Shown here piece by piece: positions 7,876 to 33,159 of a stretch of 33,410 bases of DNA. Every line of letters begins with the position of its first letter. Position 1 is the first letter of the stretch. Source of the DNA: Candidatus Latescibacterota bacterium (GTDB taxonomy: Bacteria; Latescibacterota; UBA2968; GCA-2709665); NCBI GenBank assembly GCA_012270675.1, contig JAAXHW010000122.1, positions 1 through 33,410 on the forward strand. The letters run 5' to 3'. Under the pieces are notes generated by a model. That model saw only the letters and a list, made by a program, of their open reading frames with translations, was not told the origin of the DNA and ran no database searches. Position numbers and translations under genes: made by a program.

Positions 7876-7950
7876 ATGGCGTGGATTGACGCAAGCTGCA
7901 AGGGGGGAAGCGCCTGGAATTCGGGTACGCCCACGGTTTGGGCTGGATGA
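7876..7950 (+). CDS. Possible 24-residue leader peptide, Trp-rich
   Basis: The 138-base gap between the two heparinase-like genes contains a short ORF with a strong site (GGGAGG at 7865-7870, 5 bases before ATG). The product has three Trp and one Cys in 24 residues and stops 26 bases before the GTG of the next gene. It matches no family I know. It could be a translated leader tuning the downstream gene, or chance in GC-rich sequence. Confidence 0.2.
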   Translation: MAWIDASCKGGSAWNSGTPTVWAG

Positions 7951-7976
7951 GAAAAATTCGGATGGGAGGACGCCTC

Positions 7977-10900: not shown

Positions 10901-11039
10901 CCGGACCGGTCTCGGTCCCCTCAAGCCGGAGGACTTCCCAAAGGCCAAAGGCGACCGGACGCCGAGATATTCGGTGGTCATGGCCGCCCCGGGCGATGAG
11001 GTGTGTATCCCTCACCTGGCTCAGTTTCAGCGCCGGTGA
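7977..11039 (+). CDS. Heparinase II/III-like protein 2
   Basis: This protein has 1020 residues from a GTG preceded by GGGAGGA (7964-7970). The frame is open to a TTG at 7938, but that start lacks a site. The N-terminal zinc segment reads CPVHG (C75, H78) and CPAGGETYP (C102, with G105 where the paralogues have Cys). The toroid region contains GNYGSHQ, whose Asn resembles the charge-neutralising Asn of the family, and ESPGY. The C-terminal domain has an intact HMHHD motif (H503, H505, D507) followed by LLTDIGY, as expected for the metal-binding beta-sheet domain. It is probably a cytoplasmic polysaccharide or oligosaccharide lyase of unknown substrate, as no signal peptide is present. It is the last gene of the plus-strand operon and faces a convergent operon 75 bases away. 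Confidence 0.82.
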   Translation: MTTRPVQAESERTYYTDARLAILKSNLKQYGWARKKRDEIFAAADRWARYDDEKLRSIVIPPRVPRGYQVNNFGCPVHGVEVHAQGLYKWVIDFDNPFKVKCPAGGETYPSNDFARYLGSDMVDRSLLTGPYPDDGWGWPRPGEEEPYWFVAYYTHWSMRQFLPASITSLSKAALLCEDPEQAGRYAHKCALILWQLSVYYPEYAYEKQSREGRARSDYKGKLFNAIWEVDVPVYCAPAYDAVRPFLKQDTALQKLAGKTAEEIDAMIRERLLLEAATCITDQSRRIRGNYGSHQWALVILSQVLNEQAIHPTSEEMIQYVLANPNIDLYTDLGIRDALENLIYRDGMPFESPGYNRGWVSHLTDVAEALIHVGVNLFETPRFKKLLTWPFEIQVAGQFTPSHGDTGDMFAQGAMWSPEVCRTALPHIRDPRMARVLRSDDGLENDLFDEPSDELLARFSEAETPPTGCNTFHFPAYGLANLQCGSEENRTAVSFFYGSHGAHMHHDQLNISLFSYGNALLTDIGYPEQTDPFNHKRYGFFNNTIAHNTVVVDAVKQGRGPGKLHAFQPNGFAQVVDASCEGAYPDNVDLYRRANMLVQVTPTQSYLFDVFYVRGGHQHDYSAHGTQAEFFCDPPLGPVQESGTLAGPDVPYEHFYDDPELKDRPLGSVPYGGYRGSGYQFLTGVRSAPFRGEAVCEWRLTEPKEGQPERAWQGIGLRAHLVGESEELIACDGPVQKYNYLPKTVKFLIRRRTGSNLASTFATLYEPYKDQPWIERVSQTELEPDDGRAVGVLVELTDGGRHYLFHSLAPNQAYTLDNRVYVEGQAACLVLDGGGDPVRAMLLNGAKLAMGDFSLRGKGLRRSKIVSVDYDGGTVEIAHPLLHGDLLPGQAILVAPDGFADCVTLQKVISKTRFWIGNEDLQVAGGPIVDIRPGENQILSGAANPHAQIGMTVFNCRKAPQGRLAEKIESGWTLDRTGLGPLKPEDFPKAKGDRTPRYSVVMAAPGDEVCIPHLAQFQRR

Positions 11040-14091: not shown

Positions 14092-16797
14092 TTATTCCCG
14101 CACCGATTCTGTCGAATGAAGCAGGGTTATCCCCTTGCATTCGACCGCCGGATAATCCCGCACCGTGATTGACTTCGCATCGGTGGATTCGATCTCGTAG
14201 CCGGTTTCGTCCGTCAGCAGATAAGTCCCCACAAGTCCACCCTCCCCCGGCACGTCCTCCTCCAGATGGTAGGTCCTCCCCTCAACCGACGCAACCTTCA
14301 GCGGCGTCCGGCCTCTGGAAAGCGTCAGTCCGTCCTTTCCGCACCTCAGTTCCGTGCCGTCCAGCAAATACGCCCGCAGCAGGTTTCCTGCCGAATCCAC
14401 AGACACAAACCCGAAGCGTCCGGTCATCGCAACAGGCCCACAGCCGCACCCCGACCCATCCGGTGACGAGAGAATATAATCCGTGCATCCCTCCCGTTCG
14501 ACCTCAACACCCATTGCGCCGCTGTCGGCATCGTCCAGAAGCAGCCGGGCAGACCTGACAGGCGGCATTTCGTCCGTATACGGCGCCATCACCGCCACGT
14601 ACCGGCTGTCCCCATCCGTTCGTTCCGCCAGGATCTGCTGCACGGGCGGTGCATTCAGCTGGTCGCCCCGGTCGCTGCGCCATCCCGGCGCATCCACCAC
14701 CAGGAGCCGGTGGATCGGGCTCAGCAGCCTCAGATCCATCCTCACCCCCTCGTGCGCCCACGTCGCGGTGAACGCATTTTTCGGGATTGCCGCCCGCAAG
14801 TTGCTCAGCCATTCGATCTCCTCGTCCACAGGCTCCGGGTCGGCACCCGTAATCCCCACCATCTTCCCGTTGCAGTGAAAACCGTACTGGTGCAGCTTTC
14901 CTCCCCGGACCCGGAAGAAATCCACCGCATAACTCTGTCCCCCTGGCATCTCCACCAGCGCACAGATTCTCTGGTACCGGTCACATTGTTCGTATGCATT
15001 GGCCGATGCCTGAACCACCTCAACGCCCGGTCCCCTGCCGAACAGCTCCAGCGTCGAATGACAGTTTTTCCCATTCTGGCTCATCCCGTCCACGGTCACA
15101 ATATTGTGCGCGCGCGTGCTTCCGGTCCAGGCATTGCGAGGGTCGTCCCAGATGTACCCTCTATCGGAGGCCATCTCCTGTTTGTGGGCAATGTAAATCA
15201 CCCCCAGCGTATCCCGGTGTCGATGGCCGCCGTGTGCATACCCATTCAGGTAGAATGCCGTATGATCGCTCACCCCTTCACCCCGCAGCACCGCCACGTG
15301 CCAGCCGGGAAACCATTCCGAAACCAGCGGCAGGTCCGTCTCCTGTTGCGCCTTCAGGTCCGGATCGCGATGCCACAGCGCATACTCGCTCCCCGCCTCT
15401 GAAAGAGGCGCATTCTGTACTTTTTCAAGCAGCCCGGCGTAGCGGCTGCCGTATCGGTCTGTCAGAATTTCAGCGTGTATGGTATGGAGTCCCTCGCCTG
15501 CGTGGGTATCGCCAATCACCGGGTATTGCATACGCGGGTCCAGGATGCGCACCATGCTCTCCAGGGCCAGCCGGTACCGGTCGAAATGCTGAAAAGGATT
15601 GAAGTCCTTTAACCGTTCCCCCCCGTGGGGTTCATATCCCTCCGGATCCGAATATCCCATAAGCACCTCCGGGATCTCGCGCATCACATTCAGGTGCATG
15701 TCCGAGTATGAAGGTGACTCGGTGCAGAGCCCGTCGAAGTGAAACCCGTTTTCCATCAGTTTTTCAATCCCCTCAATGGCGCGCCGGATGCCTTGCGGCC
15801 GTCCAAACAGGATGCCGACAGCGCCGCTCAACGCCCTCCCGCGTCCACATTTGTTATTAATATCCGGCCAGTTCTCCGTATCCTCACACCCGGCCAGGAT
15901 GAGATCCTCCCGAATCCGCCGGTGCATCTCGGCAGTCAGCACCGGTGTCCCATCCCCGTACTCCGCATCCCGGATCAGCTCATAGCTCAGAAGCGCATTG
16001 AGAATCATACCGCCGTCCGACCCGCTGCACCCAAAACGCCCGGCGCCCCAGAAGCCATTAAACAGACGCGCAGAATCCCCCTCGCGGTGCCGTCCTTCAA
16101 AAGCCGAGATAATGGCTTCGGCCGGAAACTTCCCGGCCGGCGGATGTTTTCCCATCCCGGCTGCGACCTCCCCCGGCGGCAGGTCCGCAACCGTCCCGTC
16201 GTAGGAGTGAAACAGCCAGCCGGGATAGCGCTGCGCCATAATATCCACAATCCACGCCGCGCGTTCGGCGTATGCCACTTCACCGGTTAGCGCATACAGC
16301 TTGGCCAGAACGCCCATCATTTCATAACACCAGCCGGCTTTCTTCGACCTCAAAACCCCACTCCAGCTCGTGTGCACCGGATGGCTGACCCATTTGAACG
16401 CGTACTTGCCCGAGGTATCCTCCGGGTGCGCCCGCTCCTCGTCCGTCAGATAAAAAGTAAAGGTCTGCCCCATCCTGGGGGCGGTAACACTGCCCGTTTC
16501 CGGGTACTCGGGGTGGGGATACACCGTCTTACAGTATTTACAGACCAGCCTATCCGGATCGCGCACGTCCCAGTCGTAAATCCCGGTCTCTCCCATTGTG
16601 GACAGCCGCCCCACGCAGGCCGGACAGTTCTGCCCGTACTGGGACCACATCGTCAGCTCGGAGATCATTTCCTCAAAAAACTCCCGCCCCTGTCCCATCG
16701 CATAGGCCACCTCCTGCTTCCACTCCGCTACAATCGCCTGGGCCCACGTATATCGTCTTGTATTCTCCCGAGCAAAGGACACATTCTGGATTTCCAT
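14092..16797 (-). CDS. Heparinase II/III-like protein 3
   Basis: This 901-residue protein starts at an ATG preceded by AAAGGAG; a longer frame runs up to 16884 but overlaps the preceding gene. It has the most complete motif set of the three paralogues. The knuckle-like pairs are C58/C61 and C86/C89 (CPAC, CKYC), followed by the same YPHPEYPETG stretch as in protein 1. The toroid segment reads DGLCTESPSY, and the C-terminal motif is GGHRHRDTLG (H525, H527, D529) followed by ASDRGY. It is probably a lyase acting in the cytoplasm on uronate-containing oligosaccharides. It lies 37 bases upstream of the amidohydrolase GTG, within a five-gene minus-strand operon. Confidence 0.82.
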   Translation of the reverse strand: MEIQNVSFARENTRRYTWAQAIVAEWKQEVAYAMGQGREFFEEMISELTMWSQYGQNCPACVGRLSTMGETGIYDWDVRDPDRLVCKYCKTVYPHPEYPETGSVTAPRMGQTFTFYLTDEERAHPEDTSGKYAFKWVSHPVHTSWSGVLRSKKAGWCYEMMGVLAKLYALTGEVAYAERAAWIVDIMAQRYPGWLFHSYDGTVADLPPGEVAAGMGKHPPAGKFPAEAIISAFEGRHREGDSARLFNGFWGAGRFGCSGSDGGMILNALLSYELIRDAEYGDGTPVLTAEMHRRIREDLILAGCEDTENWPDINNKCGRGRALSGAVGILFGRPQGIRRAIEGIEKLMENGFHFDGLCTESPSYSDMHLNVMREIPEVLMGYSDPEGYEPHGGERLKDFNPFQHFDRYRLALESMVRILDPRMQYPVIGDTHAGEGLHTIHAEILTDRYGSRYAGLLEKVQNAPLSEAGSEYALWHRDPDLKAQQETDLPLVSEWFPGWHVAVLRGEGVSDHTAFYLNGYAHGGHRHRDTLGVIYIAHKQEMASDRGYIWDDPRNAWTGSTRAHNIVTVDGMSQNGKNCHSTLELFGRGPGVEVVQASANAYEQCDRYQRICALVEMPGGQSYAVDFFRVRGGKLHQYGFHCNGKMVGITGADPEPVDEEIEWLSNLRAAIPKNAFTATWAHEGVRMDLRLLSPIHRLLVVDAPGWRSDRGDQLNAPPVQQILAERTDGDSRYVAVMAPYTDEMPPVRSARLLLDDADSGAMGVEVEREGCTDYILSSPDGSGCGCGPVAMTGRFGFVSVDSAGNLLRAYLLDGTELRCGKDGLTLSRGRTPLKVASVEGRTYHLEEDVPGEGGLVGTYLLTDETGYEIESTDAKSITVRDYPAVECKGITLLHSTESVRE

Positions 16798-16826
16798 CTC
16801 ATCTCCTTTCGCGTTTGGCGTTCTCA

Positions 16827-17723
16827 CTATGCATCCATTCCCCGCACCGGATACACCGCTCGAAACCTCTGAAACTCCATCCACGCATGGTCCGCCGCAT
16901 ACCCGTTGGGAACCGCTTCGGTGCTTCCGGGACGCTTGTAGACCACCCGGACGTGCAGCGTTGCAGGTTCATCTTCGCTGAGCTCATCCACCTCCCACGC
17001 AAAATCCCACGCCGGGCTACTCTGCCCTGGAAGCAGCGACTGCCCGGCGCCCGATGGGGAAAGGTAAAACCGGAAGCCGGGATAATCGTCAGCCATAATC
17101 TGGAACATCATCCCCCGGATCATCCCGAAATAGAAGGGATAGTCAAAGGTATGTCCCGAATCCGAGTGGCTGAAAGTCCGCCGTCCGTCCAGGAACTCCG
17201 TGGCCGCATCCTGTCCCCATGCTTCCCGCAGGGCCACATCCAGATCGGTTGGAAACACCATCGCTCCCTGCCCGTGCACCGGATTGTAATAATAGGTCCA
17301 CAGGCCCTTTTCAATAAAATGAATCCCCTTCTCCATCGGAGAATTCACATAACAGCACCAGCCAAAAGAGGTGCGGCCCTGCGGCCGGTGCCCGGGTCGG
17401 GCCATCGCTGTCATCTCGTAGTCGATGTGGTGCGGCGCCACAAGCCGGTAGGTTGCCCGCGTCTCCACGAAGTTATTCGTCTCACACGCCTCCTTGAAAA
17501 GCTCCACCGTCACCTGGTCCACCCGCCGCACCGAGGGCCGCGTCCCCCTGTGGTGCCCGAACAGCAGCAGGCCATTGCCCTGCGACACCGCCGTATGTCT
17601 ATCCTTTATCGACGTCAGAAACCAGACGCCGCTGTGCTGGTCCTGTCCTGCCCCGTGGTCCGTATCGTCTCCCACAATCGCCCGCAGCTCTCCGGCGGAG
17701 ATAAAATAGCAATGTTCGCTCAT
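16827..17723 (-). CDS. Protein of unknown function, 298 residues
   Basis: I do not recognise the family. The start at ATG 17723 has an AAGGAG site; a longer frame reaches 17942 inside the preceding gene and is unlikely. The protein has no signal peptide or membrane segment. It is rich in aromatic residues, Gly and His, with short alternating hydrophobic stretches that suggest a beta-sandwich, like sugar-binding or mutarotase-like folds. It has several His-bearing patches (HHIDYE, SHSDSGHTF) but no named motif. It is held between a ceramidase-like gene (20-base gap) and a heparinase-like gene (29-base gap), so it is almost certainly co-expressed with them and likely handles the same substrate. 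Confidence 0.7.
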   Translation of the reverse strand: MSEHCYFISAGELRAIVGDDTDHGAGQDQHSGVWFLTSIKDRHTAVSQGNGLLLFGHHRGTRPSVRRVDQVTVELFKEACETNNFVETRATYRLVAPHHIDYEMTAMARPGHRPQGRTSFGWCCYVNSPMEKGIHFIEKGLWTYYYNPVHGQGAMVFPTDLDVALREAWGQDAATEFLDGRRTFSHSDSGHTFDYPFYFGMIRGMMFQIMADDYPGFRFYLSPSGAGQSLLPGQSSPAWDFAWEVDELSEDEPATLHVRVVYKRPGSTEAVPNGYAADHAWMEFQRFRAVYPVRGMDA

Positions 17724-17743: not shown

Positions 17744-18985
17744 TCAAGGCTGTGAAATAAACCCCAGGGCCGCATGGATCAGCTCCTGTCCAGCCTCCCA
17801 CGTCATCGGCGCCGGCAGGTCCGAATTGAACATAAAAGCAGAGTTCGCCTCGTACCCGCCCAGATCCCATCCCACCTTCGAGGGGAAATATCCCGCATGG
17901 TCGTTGGCCTGGTTGATAATCAGGAGCCGGTCGTCGGGCCACCGGCGACGCAGGTCCAGCCCCCAGGCACCAAAAAGCTGGCCGGAGAAACAGGTCAGGA
18001 AAACATCCCCGATATGAAATCCCTGGACTTCCAGCTCAATATCCGAAACCACGGGCACGCCTGCTTCCCGCATCCTGAGCTGGTCCCGCGCCCAGGCCGC
18101 AGCGTACCTGGGCCCTTCCCCGCCCTCTGACAGGCGGCGCAGCGTCTCTGCGTCCGGGGCCTTCTCCAGCGGTACCGCACACAGCACGGATTGGCCGCTC
18201 AACCTATCGATGGCCCCAAATACCATCCCTTCCCCCAGCTTCAACACCGATCCGGCAAGTCCCCCGCCCACCTTCTCCACCTCCGCGAAATTCTGTTGGG
18301 ACCGATAGGGTCCCACATCGCCCAGACAGCCGTTGAAAAACGTAGCCACACCGCCCCATGTCTCCTCCAGTATATTGCACATCACGCCGGCGAAATCGGT
18401 AGACCAGTACAGATTCTTCCCCGTCAGAATCGTCGGATGGCAGCCGTAATTGACCCAAATCGCCACCGACCGTCCTGCCCCATCCACAAATCGCACCACG
18501 CCCAGCGTGGAATCGATCGGCTCCCCCTCATTCCGGCGGTTGTGGTGAAATTCCGGTTCTTCCCCCTGAGCAAACCCTATCCGCACCGGCGTCAAACCTT
18601 CCGAAGCCTCCGCCACTGCTCCCACAATTCCCTTTGAAAGATCCCTCATATACGCCGGGTCTGGAACCACATCCCGAAACTTGGTCGTCACCGGTCCGGA
18701 ATGGGTATGCGTTGTTGCAATCAAGATCCGGTCTTCCAGAATCCCCGTCTCAGTGCAAATCGCTCGCCTGATCTCTCCCGTCTTTTCCCGGTTTATGCCC
18801 ACCACGTCCACCCCCACCAGCGCAATCCGCACATCCCCTTGAGCGCACACAGTGGCCCGTGCCCAAAGCGGCAGATGCGTACCCACGGCGGGATCTTCAC
18901 GCCCGCCGTACCCGGCCATCAACAGCCCCGCCGCCGGCGTCACATCCCGCTTCGCTGCGCCCAGCGTCAACCCATCCGTTTCCAT
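17744..18985 (-). CDS. Neutral/alkaline ceramidase N-terminal-domain protein A
   Basis: This 413-residue protein starts at an ATG behind AAAGGAG (the frame is open to 19030). It is clearly related to the neutral ceramidase catalytic domain: THTHSGP (H93, H95), YGCHPT (H183), HAGYFP (Y366) and LGGYE are all present. Where the family has a Glu zinc ligand in PGExF, this protein reads SGQLF (Q336), so its metal site may be altered. There is no signal peptide and no C-terminal domain, so secreted ceramide hydrolysis is unlikely. It is the first gene of the minus-strand operon, with a candidate promoter at 19026-19054, and lies divergent from the tRNA gene. Confidence 0.8.
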   Translation of the reverse strand: METDGLTLGAAKRDVTPAAGLLMAGYGGREDPAVGTHLPLWARATVCAQGDVRIALVGVDVVGINREKTGEIRRAICTETGILEDRILIATTHTHSGPVTTKFRDVVPDPAYMRDLSKGIVGAVAEASEGLTPVRIGFAQGEEPEFHHNRRNEGEPIDSTLGVVRFVDGAGRSVAIWVNYGCHPTILTGKNLYWSTDFAGVMCNILEETWGGVATFFNGCLGDVGPYRSQQNFAEVEKVGGGLAGSVLKLGEGMVFGAIDRLSGQSVLCAVPLEKAPDAETLRRLSEGGEGPRYAAAWARDQLRMREAGVPVVSDIELEVQGFHIGDVFLTCFSGQLFGAWGLDLRRRWPDDRLLIINQANDHAGYFPSKVGWDLGGYEANSAFMFNSDLPAPMTWEAGQELIHAALGFISQP

Positions 18986-19025
18986 ACCAGTCGCTCCTTT
19001 CAACGGAAAAAGTCCGCTGCAAATC

Positions 19026-19054
19026 AACATAGATTTTCAATCTGCATGCCACAA
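19026..19054 (-). promoter_or_regulatory. Candidate sigma70 promoter of the minus-strand catabolic operon
   Basis: Read on the minus strand, TTGTGG (19054-19049) and TATGTT (19031-19026) are separated by 17 bases, about 40 bases before the start of ceramidase-like gene A. Both boxes are only partial matches to consensus. Confidence 0.35.
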
Positions 19055-20063: not shown

Positions 20064-21107
20064 TTAAAAAACGCGCTCAATCAGAAAGCTGCACATTTCT
20101 CTCAGGATCTCCCGGGCCTCCGAAGGCGGAATCTGGTCCAGATAGGCCTCGGCCCTATGTGCCCGCTTCAGGCATTCTTCCTCTGTCCTGACAATCGATC
20201 CGTAACGCTCCATCAGGGCAATGGTCCACTCGATCTGTTCGGAGGTGACTTCTGTTCGTTCCTGGTCTAAAATCTCCTGCACCCGCCGCTGTTCCTCCGG
20301 CGCGCATCGGTGAAAAAGGTCGATTACCATCAAAGTCCGCTTCCCCTCTGCAATATCCCCTCCCCGTTCTTTGCCGTATCCACCCGTTGTTGTCGTGGGC
20401 GCCGTAGACGCATCTTCGGCACAGACCGTCAGGTTCAACAGGTCGTCCCGGATCTGAAACGCCACGGCCATCGCCTCGCCGAAGTCCCCGATTGCCTGCT
20501 TCTGATCCTCCGAGGCCCCTGCAATAATCGCACCAGCCGTGCAGGGCCCCCGGCCGCTGTACCACCCCGTTTTCAGCCGCAACATCTCGATGAACGCTTC
20601 GACTTCAGGGATTTCCTCCGCCTCAATCCACCCGATGTCATAGGCCTGTCCCTCAAATGTCAGGCGCGCCCCTCGAATCATCTCCTGAAGCAGATCAAGC
20701 GTGGTTGCATCTCCCAGAATTTCCCGGTTATCCGCCAGAATTTCAAATACCTTGGAATAAAGCGCATCTCCCACGTTAATGCTGAGCGGAATCCCGTGCA
20801 GCCGGTGAAGGCAGGGCTTCCCCCGCCGCATCTCCGACCCATCTTCAATATCGTCGTGGATAATCGCGAACGAGTGAAACACCTCAAAGGCCGCCGCCGT
20901 ACGCAGGGCCGCCTCCTTCTTTCCCCCCAGGGCCTCACACGCCAGCAGCACCAGCGCCGACCGGAACCGTTTCCCTCCCCGGATCGGGTAGTCCCGCATT
21001 GGTTCGTAGAGGAAGGCGTGGGGCTCCACCTCGGGCAGAAAGGAAAACATCTCCGCGTTGATCAACGGTGCATTTTCTTCAAGAAATGTCTTTAACCTTG
21101 TTTTCAC
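20064..21107 (-). CDS. Trans-polyprenyl diphosphate synthase (GGPP/FPP synthase-like)
   Basis: This 347-residue protein starts at GTG. It condenses isopentenyl diphosphate units onto an allylic primer. The first aspartate-rich motif is DDIED (85-89) in [15 protein letters not shown]. The second, normally DDxxD, reads FQIRDDLLN (221-225) with Asn at the last place. The GGKRFR and KTGW segments and DIAEGKRTL are also typical. The chain length of the product cannot be safely read. It follows the helicase gene by 22 bases and has only a weak ribosome site, so its translation may be coupled. It may supply isoprenoid for quinone, carrier lipid or carotenoid synthesis; no such pathway gene is adjacent. 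Confidence 0.88.
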
Positions 21108-23695: not shown

Positions 23696-24697
23696 TCACA
23701 AGCATAAATTGCAAATTGCCCATCCTCCCACCAGAAGGAGGCATCCAATGTTCAAGTTCTTATATGCTTCAAACACGATCTGCAAATCCCTTTTCGCCCT
23801 GGAGAAATCCGAATAGGGCCTCCTGGACCTATCCGCCAGGCAACGGAGAAAATCCCGGATCATCCCGCGATATCCCATCAGGTCTTTAAATCCCGGGAAA
23901 AACAGCCCGGATTTCCCCTTTGCGTTTAAAAAAACGTAGATCCCGTTGTTCTCAAACGTAATTCTGCCCTTCTTGCCCAGAATATGTGAATGCTGCAGGA
24001 TGCCTTTCGTCAGGCTTCTTGTCCTCCAGGAATATTCCAACGTTGCCCGCGAACCGTCCAGATATGACAGTGTGACCATCGAATGCCGCTCCGCTTCTCC
24101 TTTTTGACAATGGGGAAACCTGGCGCAGACGCTCTGGGGAGCACATGCAAAAAGATCGGAAAGCAGCGCCACGAAATGAATGCCCCCTTCCAGCAGTGCC
24201 CCATACCGGCTCTTCCAGCCCGAAGCGGCCTGGGTAAAAAGCTTCTTCACGGCAACAGATTCAATATCGCCGATCACATCATCCTGGAGAAGTGCCTTTA
24301 TTTTTGCCAGCGACGGCTTGTAATAGTAATTCTCTGCAACCATTAAAAATCCGTCTGGATTTCTCCTTAAAGCATCTTCAACTTCATCGACCTCATCCTG
24401 CGAAACGCACATCGGCTTTTCAACCAGAACGGCCTTTCCCGCTTCTAAGGATTGAACGATCTGTTCCTTGTGAAATTCAGGGGGAGAAGCAAGCACCACA
24501 GCGGTAATTTCGGAGGACGCCAGGACCTGGTCAAGACGGTCAAAAACACCACCTCCCCCAAATGCATGGTTAAACTTCTCGGCACTGCTCCTTGACCGGC
24601 TGTGGAAAAACAGATCGACCAGACCGGACAGACGCCTGGCATGCACGCCGCCGATGGCTCCACAGCCGACCAGACAGATCTTTTCCACACGATTCAC
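23696..24697 (-). CDS. Gfo/Idh/MocA-family NAD(P)-dependent oxidoreductase
   Basis: This 333-residue protein has the Rossmann motif GCGAIGG (11-17), the family EKP motif (93-95) and GGIH with H174 in the C-terminal alpha/beta domain. Family members oxidise or reduce hydroxyls of sugars, inositols or their nucleotide derivatives. Its GTG overlaps the stop of the GMC-type gene (GTGA), so the two are translationally coupled, and it is the last gene of a three-gene cassette. The sequence is visibly less GC-rich than the lyase genes. Coupling to a flavoenzyme suggests two consecutive oxidation steps, or oxidation and reduction, on one polyol or sugar. Confidence 0.87.
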   Translation of the reverse strand: MNRVEKICLVGCGAIGGVHARRLSGLVDLFFHSRSRSSAEKFNHAFGGGGVFDRLDQVLASSEITAVVLASPPEFHKEQIVQSLEAGKAVLVEKPMCVSQDEVDEVEDALRRNPDGFLMVAENYYYKPSLAKIKALLQDDVIGDIESVAVKKLFTQAASGWKSRYGALLEGGIHFVALLSDLFACAPQSVCARFPHCQKGEAERHSMVTLSYLDGSRATLEYSWRTRSLTKGILQHSHILGKKGRITFENNGIYVFLNAKGKSGLFFPGFKDLMGYRGMIRDFLRCLADRSRRPYSDFSRAKRDLQIVFEAYKNLNIGCLLLVGGWAICNLCL

Positions 24698-26196
24698 CCA
24701 AATGCGTCCTGTATGTAATCCGCAACCCGCAGTGCATTGGCTGCAATCGTCAGGCTCGGATTGACCCCGCCCGGGGAGGGCATAAAACTCCCGTCCAGCA
24801 CAAACAGATTGTCGATTCCCCAGAAGAGGCAGTTTTTGTCTAAAACGCTTTCCCCGGGGTCATTCCCAAAACGCAGCGTCCCCACCGCATGGGAAAACGA
24901 ATCCAGATTGTAAGCATAAGACAATATGCCTCCGGCCTGTTTCATAATCCTCCTGGCCTTATCCACCAGATAATCTCTGCGCTCACAGTCCCTGGACGAG
25001 TACTGGTGGACAACTTTGACGATCTCCAAACCGTACGCATCGGTTTCTGGTGACAGGCCGACCGCATTGTCAACGCTTGGATCATCTTCCGCAATACAGA
25101 GCATGTTCTGGATACGCCTTTCCAGCAATGCCACCAGATTCTTAGAGCCTCTTGGCGCATAATGTTTCAATACACTGGATGAAGGCGTGCGAAGATCCTG
25201 TATAATGCCCGTGGAACTGCCGTATTTTTTTCGGAAATCTTCATAGAAATCCGTCAGACAGATCTGTTTGTGAAACGTATTGTCCGGATTGGTATGAAAA
25301 GGAAAAACCGTGGCGACAGTGGCATTGCAGTGCCGCATCAGAAATTTGCCGATAAACGTGTGGTTCTCATATTTTTCCAGGTGTGAGCGCAGCAAAATGG
25401 CCGGACTGTGGATTGCGCCTGCGCTGAGAACCACAACTGTCGCAGAAAGTTCGAACGTCCGTTTTGAGCTCTGGTCAATACACACTACGGAGGTAATTTT
25501 ACCATTTTTCTCGACAAAGCGCTGAACAATAACATTCGGCATAATCTCAAAATCAAACGCCTGGGCCCTCCGTAAGATCGTCGTGGTCGAATCGTTCTTG
25601 GCTTCAATTTTACAGGGATGTCCGTCACAGGTAAGACACTTTATGCACACCGTTCTGGACGTATTGGTAAAATTGATTGCCAAAGGAATCTTAAAAGGTC
25701 TGTACCCCAGCTTGCGGGCTGCTCTATCGACCCGAACGGCGGGCAGCGTGAGGTCTATGCTCTTAAACGGATAATCTGTTGAACGCGCCGGTTCGTAAAT
25801 ATCCTGTCCCGCTTCCCCGTGAACCTCAAGCAGGTGTTCGGATTTACCGTAATACGGTTCCAGGTCCGTATAGCGGATCGGCCATGTCTCGAAATCATTT
25901 TCGCGCAACCTCAGCGATGCGCCGCCGTAAAAAACCGACATCCCCCCGACAACCTCATTCGGGTGAACCGCTTTAAAGTCCTTATCGTTATACTGCTTAA
26001 CAAAAATAGGAGACTTACTCCTGTATCTCTGCTTGAGGAGTATGCTTTCCTGGTCCCAGTCCAGGGCATCTCTTCTGGCCCAGTTTCCGCGCTCTACCAA
26101 AAGCGTTTTCAAACCCGCTTTTGCAAGAGAATAGGCGGCGGCCGAGCCCCCAAACCCTGAGCCGACGATAATGGCATCAAACCGAGTTGACTTCAT
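24694..26196 (-). CDS. GMC-type FAD-dependent oxidoreductase with four-Cys cluster
   Basis: This 500-residue protein has an N-terminal FAD motif GSGFGGSAAAYSLAKAG and the GMC-like segment VVGGMSVFYGGASLRLR. Near the C terminus are HAVGTLRFG (H436) and GGVNPSLTIAANALR (N479), the expected His/Asn active-site region. Residues 184-195 hold an unusual cluster C-x2-C-x2-C-x4-C (C184, C187, C190, C195), seen in membrane-linked or sterol/polyol GMC relatives and possibly a metal or iron-sulfur site. The chosen ATG lies 20 bases inside the end of the preceding membrane-protein gene; a TTG at 26211 is the alternative. Being coupled to a Gfo/Idh/MocA gene and a membrane protein, it may oxidise a lipid or polyol at the membrane. 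Confidence 0.85.
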   Translation of the reverse strand: MKSTRFDAIIVGSGFGGSAAAYSLAKAGLKTLLVERGNWARRDALDWDQESILLKQRYRSKSPIFVKQYNDKDFKAVHPNEVVGGMSVFYGGASLRLRENDFETWPIRYTDLEPYYGKSEHLLEVHGEAGQDIYEPARSTDYPFKSIDLTLPAVRVDRAARKLGYRPFKIPLAINFTNTSRTVCIKCLTCDGHPCKIEAKNDSTTTILRRAQAFDFEIMPNVIVQRFVEKNGKITSVVCIDQSSKRTFELSATVVVLSAGAIHSPAILLRSHLEKYENHTFIGKFLMRHCNATVATVFPFHTNPDNTFHKQICLTDFYEDFRKKYGSSTGIIQDLRTPSSSVLKHYAPRGSKNLVALLERRIQNMLCIAEDDPSVDNAVGLSPETDAYGLEIVKVVHQYSSRDCERRDYLVDKARRIMKQAGGILSYAYNLDSFSHAVGTLRFGNDPGESVLDKNCLFWGIDNLFVLDGSFMPSPGGVNPSLTIAANALRVADYIQDAFG

Positions 26197-26977
26197 AGAT
26201 ATAGAGCACAATCAAACCTGCGATGATCACCCAGGCCAGGTAGTGAAATCTCTCGCGTGTGTCGATACACGCCTGAATCCTGGGCAAATCGGGCTTGAAT
26301 TTTCCGGACATGGTTCGCTGAACATACGTCTTGTAATATTCAACCAGGAATCTTTCCAGCCCGCCGTTCATATAAATCAGATAGCCCAGAGGGACGGGTG
26401 TCAGTGGGGTGTTCACAAAGTAGAACAAAGGCGAACATACCGCCAGGACCAAGGCCGACCTCTGAAATTTCAACCACTTGAACCCTTCAAAGGGCGCGTC
26501 TTTATAAGCCCCGCCCAACCCCAGGAGCAGTCCGGATAAATAAGCCGTAATCAGGAAATCGGTAAAGCGCTGCACCTTGAGGTCAATACACAGCAAACAG
26601 AAAACACCGATAATCAGAACCGTGCCGGTGCTGTATCTTAACAGATCGCTCTTTACATAATTTCCCAGAAATGTGATCCTCGAAGGGACGAAGTATTTGG
26701 ACTGGTCTTCGGTTCTGAAAAACCCCTTGTAGAGTTCGGCGATGAACCGTTCAAGTCCCATAATCAGGAAAAAGATCTGGAACAGGCTCAACCTGGAAAA
26801 GCTGTCCCGAAAAAAGGGCAGGTAGTAAAGCAGAAAAAAGATGACAATGTGGAAATAGACGCTTCGGGGAAACGTCCTGAGTTTCAACCCTTCATAGGGC
26901 GAATCTTTGAAAGCGCCCCAAAGAGAGGTATACAGTCCGGAAACGATACTCAGGGTTAAAGGAATAAATAGATTCAT
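26177..26977 (-). CDS. Integral membrane protein with an internal duplication
   Basis: This 266-residue protein is predicted by eye to have 6-8 membrane segments. I do not recognise the family. It consists of two similar halves: GAFKDSPYEGLK (21-32) matches GAYKDAPFEGFK (156-167), and GLERFIAELYKGF (74-86) matches GLERFLVEYYKTY (206-218). The repeated KD-P-EG and GLERF motifs lie at membrane edges and look like paired functional sites. The start MNLFIP has no clear ribosome site; the frame is open to a TTG at 27028. It overlaps the GMC-type gene by 20 bases and heads the lower-GC cassette. It could be a transferase, transporter or partner of the flavoenzyme. Confidence 0.72.
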   Translation of the reverse strand: MNLFIPLTLSIVSGLYTSLWGAFKDSPYEGLKLRTFPRSVYFHIVIFFLLYYLPFFRDSFSRLSLFQIFFLIMGLERFIAELYKGFFRTEDQSKYFVPSRITFLGNYVKSDLLRYSTGTVLIIGVFCLLCIDLKVQRFTDFLITAYLSGLLLGLGGAYKDAPFEGFKWLKFQRSALVLAVCSPLFYFVNTPLTPVPLGYLIYMNGGLERFLVEYYKTYVQRTMSGKFKPDLPRIQACIDTRERFHYLAWVIIAGLIVLYIYEVNSV

Positions 26978-27173: not shown

Positions 27174-29612
27174 CTAATCCACAGCCTGGACAGCCTGCTC
27201 CTTTCGGATTCGGATATCCTCCAGAACCTGCAACAAAGCCGGAAGCACAACAACCGCCGCCACGAAACAGGTCAACAGGCCGATGAGTGCCAGCTTTCCG
27301 ATCGAATTCAACCCCGGATGTGTGGCCATCGTCAGCCCGAAAAACCCGACCATCGTCGTGAGCATGGAGACCAGCATGGCGCCGCCGGTACTCTTGAGGA
27401 CCAGCGGTATCGACCGGGTGCCCTCTTCCCGATACCGGTGGTAGAGGTGTACGCCGTTGTCGATTCCCATTCCTATAATGGTTGGCAGGGCCACCATATT
27501 GTAGAAATTCAGCTTCATGTCCGTCAAATACATCGTCCCGCACATCCAGACCGCTCCGCAGACCAGTGGCAGCACCACAAGCAGGGCCTCCCGGAGGCCC
27601 CGAAAATCAATGACGACAATCAGAAAGACCACCACCAGCGTGACGCCAATCGCCCACTTGCTGTCCCGCAGCATGAGCCGCAGCATATCCGCAAAAATAA
27701 TACTCGAACTGGAGGAATAGAACGTCTTACCCGACGCTGTCCGGATCTCCTCAGAATCGTCGGCAAAGGCCATTGCATTTTTTCCGTCCCTGAGCTGCAC
27801 CTTCGGATAGATGAAGGCAAAATGCGCCCGGCTGCCATCTACGGTAGAGAACCTGCGCAGGATATTCTTCGGCAGGTCGTCTACGGACAGCGTCTCTACA
27901 CCCAGCAGTTCGCGCAAATCGTCCAGCCGTCTTTTTTGCTCCCCCTTGATCAGCCTGGCACCCTCCCCATTGGCCAGTTCCCGGATTTCTCCAATAACCG
28001 TAAGTTTCTCATCCTGCTGCCTGGGGATCGCAGACCAGAGCGTTTTGATTTTATCGATCGTCGGTGTGGAATCGGCCGAAGCGATCTTGGCTTCCACTGC
28101 TGTTACAATCTCATCCAGTTCCTCTTCGCTATTGGCCAGCACCACACTGGGGGATTGGGATTCCTGATTGAACCGCGAAATCGTACTGATTTTATCTTTC
28201 ACCGCCCGTGAGGCCGGCAGATTCGACCTCAAATTGGTAAAATCGTATTCAAATGCGATCCGGTGTAGATTGGCCCCCAAATAGACCGTAACAGCCACCC
28301 CCGCAACCAAAACCAGCCGGGCCATCGGGAACCGCCCCCGATGGCTGCCCCAGGCATGCCCCCAGACCGGGCGCATCCGGATCAGCCCCAGTTTCTTGTC
28401 CGCAAGCACAAGAAAGGCCGGAAGGACAGTCGTCATGGACACCAGCGACATCAAAATTCCCGTCCCTACAATAAATCCGAACTCAGAAAACCCTTTAAAG
28501 TCGGTAATGGTAAGCGAAAAGAAAGCCATTGAAGTGGTCAATGCCGCGGTGGAAATGGCCTGGCCCGTCTGATTGAGCGTCGTTTCGATGGCCAGCAGAA
28601 CATCCATCCGGGCAATCCGGTCTTCCAGGTACCGGGCAAACATGTGGATGCCAAAGTCGATCCCCAGCCCGAAGAGGATGACAAATAGAAAGCCGGTCAT
28701 CGTATTCAGATTGCCGATCACCCAGTAGGTAATGGTAAAGGCCCAGGACAATCCCATTATCAGGGGCAGGGCCACAAAAAAAACCGCCAGGGGTTGACGG
28801 AAATAAAGGGTTAAAAGAAGCACCACACCCACCACGCCGTACATCAGCGTCGACTGGATATCGTTTAGAATTACGTTAAAGTCATCGACTTTATTCTTGA
28901 AAGTTCCCCCGTACTGGATCACCATGTCCGGGTCGTAGGATTGGGGATGCAATGTGGTCACGGCCTGGCGTACGGCGTTGTACATCTCCTTGCTAAACCC
29001 GATATTGCTCACTGTTCCCGCTGCCATGACTTCCAGAGCCAGAAGCGTACTGTCCGTGTTTATATAATAAGGCTCCTCCGTCGTTTCTCCGTTCTCCTTG
29101 TATTTCGTTTCGATATCCGAAAAGTCGAGGATCTCTTCACCGTCCTCATCCAGGTGGATGTAAAGGGGCGACAGCTTCGCCTTCTCCTGAACAATCCGCT
29201 CATCGATCCGAAAGTGTATCTCCTCCAGATCTTCCAGGTCCATGTAGAGCAGGGCGTGATCCTTAAAAAAGTCGATGTCCCGTTTATAGTCGACATAATT
29301 CACATATTGCCCGTAGGCATCTCCCTCCAGCTCTTGAGCCAGGTCTTCGGCAAATCGTTTGGAAGACTCGTAATCCTCACATTCCACCAGAACAATCAGG
29401 CTGCCTACTCCGCCAACGCGCGCTTTGATGTCATTCAAGGTTTTAATGCTATTGTAGTCTTTGGGCAGCAGCGCAGCAATATCGGTCTCCAGCCGATAGA
29501 CCAGCCGATAGACATAATAACTACAAAAAATGGTGAGTAGACTCGATAGAAAAATAATGCTCAGATAGCGCCTATAGACAATTCTTGAAAGAAAACTGAA
29601 CCAGGCCTGCAT
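27174..29612 (-). CDS. RND/MMPL-family exporter (HpnN-like)
   Basis: This 812-residue protein has the RND layout of two repeats, each with a first membrane segment, a large periplasmic domain and five further membrane segments. The first segment lies at about 15-37, followed by a YRLETDIAALLP stretch typical of lipid-exporting MMPL proteins. Conserved segments such as LFGLGIDFGIHMFARYLEDR in half one and IGMGIDNGVHLYHRY in half two carry the Gly-Asp motifs of the proton path. Relatives export hopanoids or other envelope lipids. It starts 10 bases after the MlaC gene; the site TAAGGA overlaps the MlaC stop codon, so the two are coupled. Lipid export towards the outer membrane is likely; the substrate is unknown. 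Confidence 0.88.
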   Translation of the reverse strand: MQAWFSFLSRIVYRRYLSIIFLSSLLTIFCSYYVYRLVYRLETDIAALLPKDYNSIKTLNDIKARVGGVGSLIVLVECEDYESSKRFAEDLAQELEGDAYGQYVNYVDYKRDIDFFKDHALLYMDLEDLEEIHFRIDERIVQEKAKLSPLYIHLDEDGEEILDFSDIETKYKENGETTEEPYYINTDSTLLALEVMAAGTVSNIGFSKEMYNAVRQAVTTLHPQSYDPDMVIQYGGTFKNKVDDFNVILNDIQSTLMYGVVGVVLLLTLYFRQPLAVFFVALPLIMGLSWAFTITYWVIGNLNTMTGFLFVILFGLGIDFGIHMFARYLEDRIARMDVLLAIETTLNQTGQAISTAALTTSMAFFSLTITDFKGFSEFGFIVGTGILMSLVSMTTVLPAFLVLADKKLGLIRMRPVWGHAWGSHRGRFPMARLVLVAGVAVTVYLGANLHRIAFEYDFTNLRSNLPASRAVKDKISTISRFNQESQSPSVVLANSEEELDEIVTAVEAKIASADSTPTIDKIKTLWSAIPRQQDEKLTVIGEIRELANGEGARLIKGEQKRRLDDLRELLGVETLSVDDLPKNILRRFSTVDGSRAHFAFIYPKVQLRDGKNAMAFADDSEEIRTASGKTFYSSSSSIIFADMLRLMLRDSKWAIGVTLVVVFLIVVIDFRGLREALLVVLPLVCGAVWMCGTMYLTDMKLNFYNMVALPTIIGMGIDNGVHLYHRYREEGTRSIPLVLKSTGGAMLVSMLTTMVGFFGLTMATHPGLNSIGKLALIGLLTCFVAAVVVLPALLQVLEDIRIRKEQAVQAVD

Positions 29613-29622
29613 CGATTAATCC

Positions 29623-30243
29623 TTACCCTTTCCCGTCGTTACTTTTGCTGCTCAACTTATCTTTCAGCTTCCGGACAAGCGATTCGTAGGAGTGCTTTCG
29701 AATCTCTTTATAAAACTGAGACCGGTTGTTCCGGGAAACCCGCAAATCATCGATTATCATATCGTAAATCAGCCATTTGCTATCCACCAGGTGAAGTTTG
29801 TAGTCAATCGTACTGTGCTCACTCTTGTAGTGCACCACCGTTTTCACGAGGGCATCCGTCCCGTTAACCTCAGCACCAATATAATCAATTTTATCGGATT
29901 TGGCATAAAGTTTCGGATCCGCGTAATTCTTCTGAATCAGGCGTCTGCACAGATCCGTGAACTCTGTCTGTTCCTCCTCGGTCCGTTCCTTCCAATAACG
30001 CCCCAACGACAGTTCGCTGAACCGTCTGAAATTGAAGAGATCGCCAACGATCTCTTTCAATCGCTTCCGTTCGGCCTCGGTCTGCCCTTCCGTCTTGGAA
30101 CGAACGATCTCCTGGATCGAGCGGTCTCGGGCCTTCATCATCTCAAGCAGCGCCTCTGCCTGGTTCTCGTTCGACGCTGCCCCAACAGCCGCAGTGCCCC
30201 CTGCAAAAATCGCACAAACCGCAAGTCTTCCAATCCACTTCAT
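29623..30243 (-). CDS. MlaC/Ttg2D-family periplasmic lipid-carrier protein
   Basis: This 206-residue protein has a Sec signal peptide of about 22 residues ending near VGAA. The mature part matches the MlaC family, which shuttles phospholipid or other lipid through the periplasm: FNFRRFSELSLGRYW and EFTDLCRRLIQKNYA are the family hallmark segments. A GAGGAAA site precedes the ATG. It has no MlaE/MlaF/MlaD partners nearby; instead its gene is coupled to an RND/MMPL exporter, the arrangement seen in hopanoid-type lipid export loci. It lies 117 bases after the preceding gene of the same strand. Confidence 0.88.
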   Translation of the reverse strand: MKWIGRLAVCAIFAGGTAAVGAASNENQAEALLEMMKARDRSIQEIVRSKTEGQTEAERKRLKEIVGDLFNFRRFSELSLGRYWKERTEEEQTEFTDLCRRLIQKNYADPKLYAKSDKIDYIGAEVNGTDALVKTVVHYKSEHSTIDYKLHLVDSKWLIYDMIIDDLRVSRNNRSQFYKEIRKHSYESLVRKLKDKLSSKSNDGKG

Positions 30244-30303
30244 GTCTGATTTCCTCGATCTATTTGCACGGACGTCAGAACCGCCACCCCACCCTGCTCC
30301 TAT

Positions 30304-30330
30304 GGAACTGTTGAAAACAACAAAAGTTCC
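30304..30330 (-). other. Small bulged hairpin before the MlaC gene
   Basis: GGAACT (30304-30309) pairs with AGTTCC (30325-30330) and GTTG with CAAC, with an AAA bulge and a 4-base loop. No T-run follows on the minus strand, so it is not a standard terminator. It lies about 60 bases upstream of the MlaC start and could affect processing or expression between the two genes. Confidence 0.3.
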
Positions 30331-30360
30331 AGCAACCCCCTGGTCTATCCAAAGCCTCGA

Positions 30361-31821
30361 TCAGTCTGCTTTTTCAGAGGCCAGCTTCTCCGTCTCCTCC
30401 TGGTTGGAAACGGTTGTGGGCCATACCCCTCGGGTGCGCAGCATATGCCCCGAATATCCGAAGATCGCGGTCACAATCAACCCAGACCCGATGGTGAAAA
30501 TCCAGTAAATTGTATCTAAACAGTTGGCCAGAGCCAGAACACAGAAAAGAGCGGCAAAGAAGTCCCGCCTGCAAGCGAATTTGAGCGAGCAGAACACCCG
30601 GTGAAACCCCCCCCGTTTTTCCTGCGGCACCTCCTCCGAAAAGGCCATGTTGAAACTCACGATGCTGCCCGAACCGGTGTTCTGCAGGTAGAGTAAGACC
30701 AGCGAGACGGCCAGGATATCTACCGCCAGGACCACCCATCCCAGCGTCAGGATGTACGTCTCGCCCGTCAGCCGATACATGCCATAGATCACACCGATAA
30801 AAAAGGCCAGATAGGAAATATTATCCCCCAGGGTATCCAACCACTCACCCCTGCGCGATCCCATAAACTTCAGCTTGGCAATCTCTCCATCGCAGCCGTC
30901 CACAATTGAGGCGAACTGGAAAAGCAGCCCCCCCATCGCCAGCCGCAGGTAGTCCCCCGAAGCCACCCACCAGGCCGCTAAGAAGCTGATACACAGTGTT
31001 GCCAGCGAAATGTGGTTCGGCGCAACGGGGGTGTTCACAAGCAGGCGGGTGATCCGCGTTGAGATCTTCCGGTTGAAAAACCGGGACACAAACCCGTCGG
31101 TCGGTTTTCCCAGCATCTGGAACAGGGCCTGTTCCGCATACCGGAGAGATTCGGGAGTATCCACATCCAGCCAGAACAGACCTCCCACGTCCACCGCACG
31201 CATTTTCCCCTCAGACGCCAGTTCCTGAATGCCGCTGGAAAGGGAATCGTCGCCGGCCGCCACCAGGCGCTCCAGCGCCTCAAACAGGTAGGGGCTGCAC
31301 AGAAAAAGCCCGGTATCCACCGCATTGTAGGAACTCAGGCCTTTGCCAATCTGAAGAATCCGGTCTCCTTCTAACATGACCTTTGTGGCGTCGTCTATAT
31401 CGAAAATGGCATCGAGCCGAGAATCCACGCAGAGAACGGCTTCGTCCCCACCAACCGGCATATTCCGAAGCGTGGCCAAGGCCTGCGGGTCGAACAGGTG
31501 ATCCGACATCAGCAGGAGGAAGGGCTCGTTGACGCAGTCCCGGGCCTTGAGGACCGAACGTCCGTTCCCCAATTCCCACTCCGGATTCTCCACCCAGTCG
31601 ATGTGGACATCTACCTGAGGGTCGGACGCAATCGCTTCCCGGACCTCCTGTCCCCGAAAGCCGGTGACGACCACAAACTCCCTGATGCCCGCCCGCTTTG
31701 CTAACAGGATGGTCCGCTTGAGCAGGCCGACCCCGGCGACCTTAACCAGGGGTTTGGGCAGGTCCGCCCCATTTCCGTTTAGACGGCTGCCCCTGCCAGC
31801 GGCAATAATCACAGCCTTCAT
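30361..31821 (-). CDS. Fused sugar-phosphate nucleotidyltransferase / CDP-alcohol phosphatidyltransferase (IPCT-DIPPS-like)
   Basis: This protein has 486 residues. The N-terminal domain (1 to about 240) is a nucleotidyltransferase with AAGRGSRL (7-14) and LPKPLVKV. The C-terminal domain (about 255-475) is a membrane CDP-alcohol phosphatidyltransferase with the complete active-site pattern DGCDGEIAK...GEWLDTLGD (D308, D311, D329, D333); Lys replaces the usual Arg at 316. This fusion is the layout of bifunctional IPCT-DIPPS enzymes that activate inositol-1-phosphate with CTP and join it to a second polyol phosphate. Here the product could be a polyol-phosphate solute or a lipid head group. A GGGGAGGG site precedes the ATG. 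The surrounding genes, MlaC and RND, favour a lipid. Confidence 0.85.
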   Translation of the reverse strand: MKAVIIAAGRGSRLNGNGADLPKPLVKVAGVGLLKRTILLAKRAGIREFVVVTGFRGQEVREAIASDPQVDVHIDWVENPEWELGNGRSVLKARDCVNEPFLLLMSDHLFDPQALATLRNMPVGGDEAVLCVDSRLDAIFDIDDATKVMLEGDRILQIGKGLSSYNAVDTGLFLCSPYLFEALERLVAAGDDSLSSGIQELASEGKMRAVDVGGLFWLDVDTPESLRYAEQALFQMLGKPTDGFVSRFFNRKISTRITRLLVNTPVAPNHISLATLCISFLAAWWVASGDYLRLAMGGLLFQFASIVDGCDGEIAKLKFMGSRRGEWLDTLGDNISYLAFFIGVIYGMYRLTGETYILTLGWVVLAVDILAVSLVLLYLQNTGSGSIVSFNMAFSEEVPQEKRGGFHRVFCSLKFACRRDFFAALFCVLALANCLDTIYWIFTIGSGLIVTAIFGYSGHMLRTRGVWPTTVSNQEETEKLASEKAD

Positions 31822-31872
31822 ATCCCTCCCCTTCTCAGTCTCTCATCGTCCTGAACAGTGTCTGTCTCAATA

Positions 31873-33159
31873 TCACGGCTCAAATGACTGCTCCTGTCTG
31901 GAGGGCTGCCCAGGATAGGCGTCCATTGTCTTTGTGGTGTCCGGATAGGCGGCGGTAAAGCGCTTGCTTCGGTTCGCCGACCATACCACAATATCGTCGT
32001 AGTCTGCTTCCGCCTCTGTTTGCGTGGCGTTGGCATCTGTCAGAATACCGATACCCACCGAGAGCTTTGGCGGCATCTTGCCCCAGAGCCGTTTGAAATC
32101 CTCGTACAGATTCACCTGTTGGGTGATCCATTGCCCCAGCTTCTCCGGCCCGCTTTGCAAGACCACCACCTTGGGCCGGGCGATCAGCTTCCGGTCTGCG
32201 ACCGTGCCTATGGGCAGCGATGTACTCCACACGTACTTGATCTGCGTTGGAATGCCCAGAAAATTTCGTGAATAGACGATATAGATACCGGCCGCACTGT
32301 CGTTGATCTCTCCGTAGCGCTCGTCCGCTCCCTCCGGAAGCTTCCAGACCCGCCAGCGCCAGGTCAGGATCGGGTACTTGTGCAGGTCCCACGAAAGCGG
32401 TCTGTAAACAGCGGGAGAGGTCCGATTGTCCCGGGCATGGAGGTAGTGGTTGCCATCCTCCTCAACAACCGTATAGACCGTGTCAACATTGTCCCGGTCC
32501 TTCTCCCGCCATTCGCTCCAGCCATTCGCCAGGGTGCTGTTGTGTCCGTGAGAGAAATCTTCCAGTACAATATATCCCTGGTTGGCTACCTCTGCGACGA
32601 GGACACTATACGCCTGCTTGCGGAGAAACCTGGCCAGGTCGCGATAGGCCTTCACCAGTCCCTTCTCGTCCATGGTCATATCGTGTATCAGCCACTGGCC
32701 TCTAAAACGCCGGAGCTGACAATAAACCTCCAGGGTTGCACCGGACTTGAAAGGCACCAGGAGCCGCACCCTGGCCTCATGCTGCTTCTCTTCAATCCCT
32801 TCAACGGTAATCCCGTCGAGTCGATATTCCGGCACGCGCTCAAGCAGATCCTCTGCCAGCCGATTGGCAAACACGTCGATAAACTGTTTGCGTTCCTCAA
32901 CCGTAATCTTGTACCAACGCTTCTTTAAAATCGCCTGTCCCGTCCCCATAAAATCAAACGATGCCAGCAAGAATTCGCGCACGGACTTCCGATTCTGGGC
33001 CACGGCCTCCCGGTCCAGGCGCTCCGCAAGGGCAGTCACATATCCCTCGACTGCTTTCGACGATGAAGACGGCTCTGCAAAGATGTGTCCGGGAAGACAG
33101 ACAAGGGTGAGAACAAGCCAGAGAAATGTCATATTGCGCAACCTATCGTTCCTGTTCAT
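31873..33159 (-). CDS. Secreted MlaC-DUF3047 fusion protein
   Basis: This 428-residue protein starts with a Sec signal peptide (about 1-28, ending IFA). Residues about 35-200 are an MlaC-like lipid-carrier domain with SFDFMGTGQAILKKRWY, FIDVFANRLAEDLLERV and WLIHDMTMD. The rest (about 210-415) matches DUF3047: YPILTWRWRVWKLP, DSAAGIYIVY, IKYVWS. The two families are usually separate proteins, and the fusion suggests DUF3047 works on the cargo of the carrier. An AAGGAA site precedes the ATG, immediately followed upstream by repeat copy 2. It leads the minus-strand run down to the RND exporter. Confidence 0.82.
   Translation of the reverse strand: MNRNDRLRNMTFLWLVLTLVCLPGHIFAEPSSSSKAVEGYVTALAERLDREAVAQNRKSVREFLLASFDFMGTGQAILKKRWYKITVEERKQFIDVFANRLAEDLLERVPEYRLDGITVEGIEEKQHEARVRLLVPFKSGATLEVYCQLRRFRGQWLIHDMTMDEKGLVKAYRDLARFLRKQAYSVLVAEVANQGYIVLEDFSHGHNSTLANGWSEWREKDRDNVDTVYTVVEEDGNHYLHARDNRTSPAVYRPLSWDLHKYPILTWRWRVWKLPEGADERYGEINDSAAGIYIVYSRNFLGIPTQIKYVWSTSLPIGTVADRKLIARPKVVVLQSGPEKLGQWITQQVNLYEDFKRLWGKMPPKLSVGIGILTDANATQTEAEADYDDIVVWSANRSKRFTAAYPDTTKTMDAYPGQPSRQEQSFEP

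Follow-up and report, generated by a model that had tools for sequence, protein, structure and literature searches.

It is an open question how lipids other than lipopolysaccharide (LPS) are brought to the outer membrane, and another what takes the place of LPS in diderm bacteria without it. Both are touched by a run of genes in a metagenome-assembled genome (MAG) of a Candidatus Latescibacterota bacterium. The DNA analyzed here (the window) is an entire contig of 33,410 bases from a MAG of 4.0 Mb that is 94% complete and 7% contaminated. Within positions 27174 to 33159, it encodes a secreted MlaC-DUF3047 protein, a fused nucleotidyltransferase/CDP-alcohol phosphotransferase (here referred to as SYN), a stand-alone MlaC carrier, and an HpnN-like MMPL protein (here RND). 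Does this block make and export a lipid and, if so, of what kind? We hold it somewhat more probable than even (roughly 0.55) that it is a synthesis-plus-export operon for a special envelope lipid, for which we infer the chemistry, the direction of transport, and the contacts between partners.

The four genes are intact, complete, and collinear on the minus strand, where an earlier note on this DNA had placed them. The gene for MlaC-DUF3047 (33159-31873; 428 amino acids [aa]) is followed by those for SYN (31821-30361; 486 aa, with about six transmembrane [TM] helices), MlaC (30243-29623; 206 aa), an HpnM-like member of the periplasmic lipid carrier family, and RND (29612-27174; 812 aa), an HAE3-type inner-membrane transporter, with intergenic gaps of 51, 117, and 10 bp. 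Pfam scores exceed the curated cut-offs for every named domain: MlaC-DUF3047 matches PF05494 at 56 bits (cut-off, 26) and PF11249 at 130 bits (cut-off, 27), SYN matches NTP_transf_3 at 52 bits and CDP-OH_P_transf at 33 bits, MlaC matches PF05494 at 108.7 bits (cut-off, 26), and RND matches PF03176 at 139 bits. Gene calls, domains, and gaps thus bear out the earlier note's description of an IPCT-DIPPS-like synthase encoded with two MlaC proteins and an RND transporter on one strand.

Linkage of these genes is retained among relatives. An ortholog of SYN with about 60 to 68% identity is present in all 20 relatives from the same order that were searched; the named relatives found via SYN are Candidatus Latescibacterota MAGs, some of which carry a Gemmatimonadota label. 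SYN, MlaC, and RND are linked in the 20 order relatives read, in one of them across a contig break, and the proteins of the block share about 52 to 72% identity with those of the window. The order SYN, MlaC, RND, M283 (an orphan membrane protein), and a GMC oxidoreductase, all on the same strand, is kept with few exceptions: a contig end in G008, whose MlaC gene is found at the beginning of a different contig; a glycosyltransferase gene inserted in the run in G010; and a transposase-like gene pair between SYN and MlaC in G007 (a pair present there in two copies, L073:11081-12243 and L073:42-1204). The collinearity of SYN, MlaC, and RND in relatives with sufficient contigs is more than chance. 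Immediately upstream of SYN in relatives, wherever the contig permits, lies a gene for a TolC-type outer membrane efflux protein (PF02321, 136 to 142 bits). It is preceded by a PF03706 flippase-like gene in most genomes of one family of the order (f2) and by a glycosyltransferase gene in another (f1), and a TPR-PpiC protein is also encoded upstream in order relatives.

In a sister family (f4), the set is the same but the synthase is split: NTP, CDP-OH, PF03706, TolC, (MlaC-)DUF3047, MlaC, and RND. The full run occurs in 11 of 14 f4 genomes read, with genes that mostly overlap or nearly do so. The earlier note had proposed examining whether the genes lie scattered in relatives; mostly they do not, given that the genes for synthase, carrier, and exporter stay together in the order and in those 11 genomes. 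Most f4 DUF3047 proteins are ~440 aa long with an MlaC-like N-domain (hhalign probability, 97.8; E = 1.3e-12), so the MlaC-DUF3047 fusion and the layout with two MlaC domains are ancient. Across the class, there is one stand-alone MlaC per genome, nearly always in the cluster (G029 has none), and only the window's genome has a second MlaC above the cut-off. Outside the class, MlaC was found only in G049 and G053, beside a TolC gene, with no RND recognized next to it in the stretches read. DUF3047 was found in 0 of 4 testable genomes outside the phylum, in a search that had no positive control. Large TPR and FG-GAP/UnbV_ASPIC proteins are encoded directly downstream of RND in f4 (L055:12240-15452 and L148:13578-16793).

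The carriers resemble lipid-binding proteins. The MlaC profile matches solved MlaC/Ttg2D structures, and in an AlphaFold model of MlaC-DUF3047 of moderate confidence (mean pLDDT, 70), the N-domain is matched by Foldseek to the MlaC/Ttg2D fold (4fcz, 5uwb, 5uwa, and 2qgu). The DUF3047 domain of the model matches CFAP20, CBM16, GH12, and lectin-like beta-sandwiches, which suggests a sugar-binding role. We found no paper on DUF3047 in the open-access literature searched; for this domain, the present analysis supplies a fold prediction and a context, that of an MlaC partner. Mla phospholipid trafficking shares with the cluster the MlaC carrier family and the predicted lipid-binding fold, but in the cluster, MlaC is paired with an RND protein. 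Neither MlaA nor MlaFEDB was seen among the genes of the cluster, and whole genomes were not searched for them. The nearest solved structure to RND is the hopanoid transporter HpnN (PDB 5khn; E = 4.5e-35), and among the plasmid matches listed for RND, there are only distant MMPL proteins with 22 to 25% identity.

Across the whole class, the cluster goes together with a lack of LpxC, the gene for the committed step of lipid A synthesis. LpxC is missing in 47 of 47 class genomes and present in 12 of 13 genomes from elsewhere in the phylum, which mostly lack MlaC; controls for the LpxC search were positive in E. coli, Caulobacter, Synechococcus, and Bacteroides. The nominal Fisher P value for the LpxC correlation is about 1e-11, and it reflects one phylogenetic split, not 60 independent data points. 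Two features argue that the class has an outer membrane despite the absence of LpxC: the cluster includes a TolC gene, and the single-contig genome G037 encodes a TonB plug domain. This absence is possibly an unreported loss of LPS: we found no paper on an LPS-less Latescibacterota class in the open-access literature searched, and LPS genes have been reported in two Latescibacteria single-cell genomes, whose class membership was not checked (PMC4454575).

How might the parts work together? The N-domain of SYN would activate a phosphorylated alcohol or sugar as a CDP derivative, and its membrane domain would pass the phospho-alcohol on to an acceptor in the membrane. The resulting lipid would be moved to the periplasmic leaflet by the PF03706 flippase-like protein, whose gene often lies upstream in relatives, and the HpnN-like RND protein, driven by the proton gradient, would extract it from the inner membrane. 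MlaC and MlaC-DUF3047 would then ferry it across the periplasm, with the carbohydrate-binding-like DUF3047 domain touching the wall or the head group, and either the TolC-type protein or the carriers would deliver it to the outer membrane. We favor synthesis and export of a lipid because genes for synthase, flippase, TolC, carriers, and RND are linked in both the order and f4, because the single stand-alone MlaC of class genomes nearly always lies in the cluster, because the MlaC-DUF3047 fusion is old, because predicted structure and profile match lipid-bound MlaC/Ttg2D, because RND is closest to HpnN, and because LpxC is missing from a class in which TolC and the TonB plug indicate an outer membrane.

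A bolder and tentative proposal, which we consider rather doubtful, is that the product of the operon replaces LPS as the main outer-leaflet lipid of an LPS-free diderm class and that the operon also delivers it. Delivery would then follow a non-Lpt route through a CDP-alcohol phosphotransferase, a PF03706 flippase, an HpnN-like RND protein, tandem MlaC carriers, one of them fused to a carbohydrate-binding-like domain, and a TolC-type protein. M283 aside, all the parts are members of known families, most of which have solved relatives. The cluster is a compact and conserved collection of candidate parts. In the open-access papers searched, we found neither this combination nor its conservation throughout the class nor its coincidence with a missing LpxC, which is weak evidence of novelty.

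Several observations weigh against the synthesis and export of a lipid. Three genomes of one f4 genus (G025, G028, and G041) have two separate loci, one with synthase and flippase and one with TolC, carrier, and RND. In a further family (f3, one genome), flippase, TolC, DUF3047, and MlaC are together and SYN lies elsewhere, beside a Wzx-like polysaccharide flippase gene. The LpxC-containing genome G049 also has SYN, in a different gene context. A periplasmic adaptor protein that could join TolC and RND in one channel was not seen. The window's own contig stops short of the upstream genes: it ends 251 bp upstream of the MlaC-DUF3047 gene, those 251 bp contain no TolC fragment, and the TolC and PF03706 genes of relatives are for this reason not visible in the window's genome. 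The main argument against a lipid product is the form of SYN, for which a hydropathy scan (a simple window method) suggests about six TM helices; according to Clarke et al. (PMC4634129), the acceptors of characterized six-helix CDP-alcohol phosphotransferases (CDP-APs) are soluble, and enzymes that act on lipid acceptors possess another three or four helices.

The rival that survives best, although we regard it as unlikely, builds on that form: SYN would make a soluble phosphodiester of the compatible-solute type, as IPCT-DIPPS does, and its neighbors would constitute an independent transporter of lipids or hydrophobes that shares the operon. Such a product stays in play because characterized enzymes with six helices, the number that SYN seems to have, take soluble acceptors. 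The closest solved relative of SYN is the Archaeoglobus IPCT-DIPPS 4mnd (E = 1.7e-53 by phmmer with a single sequence and 8e-73 by profile), and SYN resembles the IPCT-DIPPS enzymes (PDB 4mnd and 2xme) in its two-domain fusion, its nucleotidyl domain, and its catalytic CDP-AP motif, with a match that spans the nucleotidyl domain and the first TM helices (residues 1 to 365). The CDP-AP signature reads D308xxDGxxA(K)...G325xxxD329xxxD333, with D308, D311, G312, A315, G325, D329, and D333 invariant over 17 orthologs; the IPCT-DIPPS signature, D..DG..A[RK]...G...D...D, is complete, with residue 316 being Lys rather than Arg in the window. However, the alignment to 4mnd ends at about residue 365, and the acceptor-binding half of SYN therefore differs from that of DIPPS. 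Against the DIPPS equivalog model NF041135, SYN scores 262 bits versus a cut-off of 580, over model positions 1 to 338 of 419. Two further points count against a soluble product: in two families, genes for the synthase, whether fused or split, keep company with those for a flippase, a carrier, and an exporter, SYN itself being in an operon with carriers and an exporter, and the order lacks inositol-1-phosphate synthase (MIPS; PF07994). A gene for a Wzx/MATE-like polysaccharide flippase lies near the SYN orthologs of f3 and of another family, f7, and near the NTP gene of the f4 genome G030 (L048:6559-8082, L195:10111-11802, and L055:1935-3518).

MIPS bears directly on the donor. It was found in none of the 21 order genomes (that of the window and 20 relatives), several of which are 97 to 99% complete and two of which are single contigs, and 5 of 14 control genomes were positive in the search. 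It is present in all 25 f4 genomes, at loci unrelated to the cluster in those read. Because MIPS is absent from the order, the donor of SYN is probably not CDP-inositol, and an inositol-based lipid in the window's order is likewise improbable. The earlier note had suggested looking for an inositol-phosphate synthase gene; together with the score of SYN against the DIPPS model, the outcome speaks against the inositol/DIPPS substrate that it had in mind. Its broader idea, a polyol phospholipid bound for the outer membrane, survives in part: a conserved lipid synthesis/export cluster with two MlaC-type carriers and an RND protein stands, the inositol substrate does not, and the six-helix form of SYN leaves the choice between a lipid and a soluble product undecided.

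Decidedly unlikely is a second rival, in which MlaC, RND, and TolC form an exporter of hydrophobes or of hopanoids or terpenoids, comparable to HpnMN or AmeABCD, and SYN is incidental. HpnN is indeed the nearest solved RND protein, the HpnM model also matches the MlaC-type carrier, and the HpnN/HpnM hopanoid and BstA sterol transport systems share an HAE3 RND with the cluster. AmeABCD of Castellaniella is a precedent for an HAE3 RND with two periplasmic proteins and an outer-membrane component (PMC6394551), and a polyprenyl synthetase is encoded near the cluster (20064-21107). Yet scores fall far under the equivalog cut-offs, both for RND (TIGR03480, 347 versus 752 bits; NF052374, 237 versus 1,100 bits) and for MlaC against the HpnM model (TIGR03481, 51.1 bits; cut-off, 160). 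Squalene-hopene cyclase (PF13243) is absent from the window's genome; of the 21 order genomes, G019 alone has it at full strength, and G011 gives a marginal match. Hopanoid transport was rejected on this basis. Unlike the hopanoid and sterol systems, the cluster adds MlaC-DUF3047, TolC, and a synthase, and synthase genes are its constant neighbors, whereas AmeABCD has different periplasmic families, is tied to monoterpene tolerance, and includes no lipid synthase. In G019 (L196), the squalene-hopene-cyclase family gene adjoins several cytochrome P450-like genes, unlike in its relatives.

Quite improbable is a Kennedy-like route from CDP-inositol and diacylglycerol to an inositol phospholipid, as proposed for Bacteroides vulgatus, which would make the earlier note's polyol lipid right: IPCT is the closest solved relative of the SYN N-domain, f4 has MIPS, and the Bacteroidetes inositol-lipid clusters (BT_1521-1526 and a putative B. 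vulgatus-like alternative; PMC9246714) resemble ours in that NTP transferase and CDP-alcohol phosphotransferase genes lie together close to that of an LPG-synthase-type (PF03706-like) homologue, but no MlaC, RND, or TolC is described there, the window's order has no MIPS, and that of f4 is unlinked to the cluster, so that both an inositol lipid and a DIPP product were rejected. A phosphonolipid (PntC) pathway was also rejected; the PEP mutase model TIGR02320 was never matched above its cut-off in 31 genomes, with zero matches in five SYN-carrying family members.

The gene run of the window continues beyond position 27174 on the minus strand into M283 (26177-26977), the GMC oxidoreductase (24694-26211; Pfam GMC_oxred_N/C), which overlaps M283, and a Gfo/Idh/MocA oxidoreductase (23696-24697), which overlaps GMC. 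The nearest solved relatives of GMC are FAD glucose/fructose dehydrogenases, and the Gfo protein, assigned by Pfam, scores 79.5 bits against the IolG model (cut-off, 355). M283 is a polytopic protein without a Pfam family, and members of its family give only weak Pfam matches. It has a two-fold internal repeat (GA[FY]KDxPxEGFK...RS...GLERF) and a mean column identity of 80% within the order, and it occurs in 44 of 47 class genomes and nowhere else among the 64 phylum genomes searched. A fold search of the PDB with its AlphaFold model (pLDDT, 81) found nothing at E <= 0.001. In most f4 genomes read, M283, GMC, and Gfo form a cassette of their own with no lipid-cluster genes beside it (L185, L186, L188, L189, L190, L192, and L194), and the junction of the two cassettes is thus a trait of the window's order. 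The idea that GMC and Gfo modify the head group of the exported lipid, put forward in the earlier note, becomes less likely because f4 keeps these genes apart from the exporter. In several f4 genomes, the cassette is flanked by a divergent 287-aa protein (MRLGVVGMLP...).

Elsewhere in the window are genes for three heparinase II/III-like proteins (4842-7838 and 7938-11039 on the plus strand and 14092-16884 on the minus strand). Near them are encoded a DegT-type aminotransferase, an amidohydrolase, and an alkaline-ceramidase-like protein (17744-19030), and the region is likely a glycan or glycolipid degradation island.

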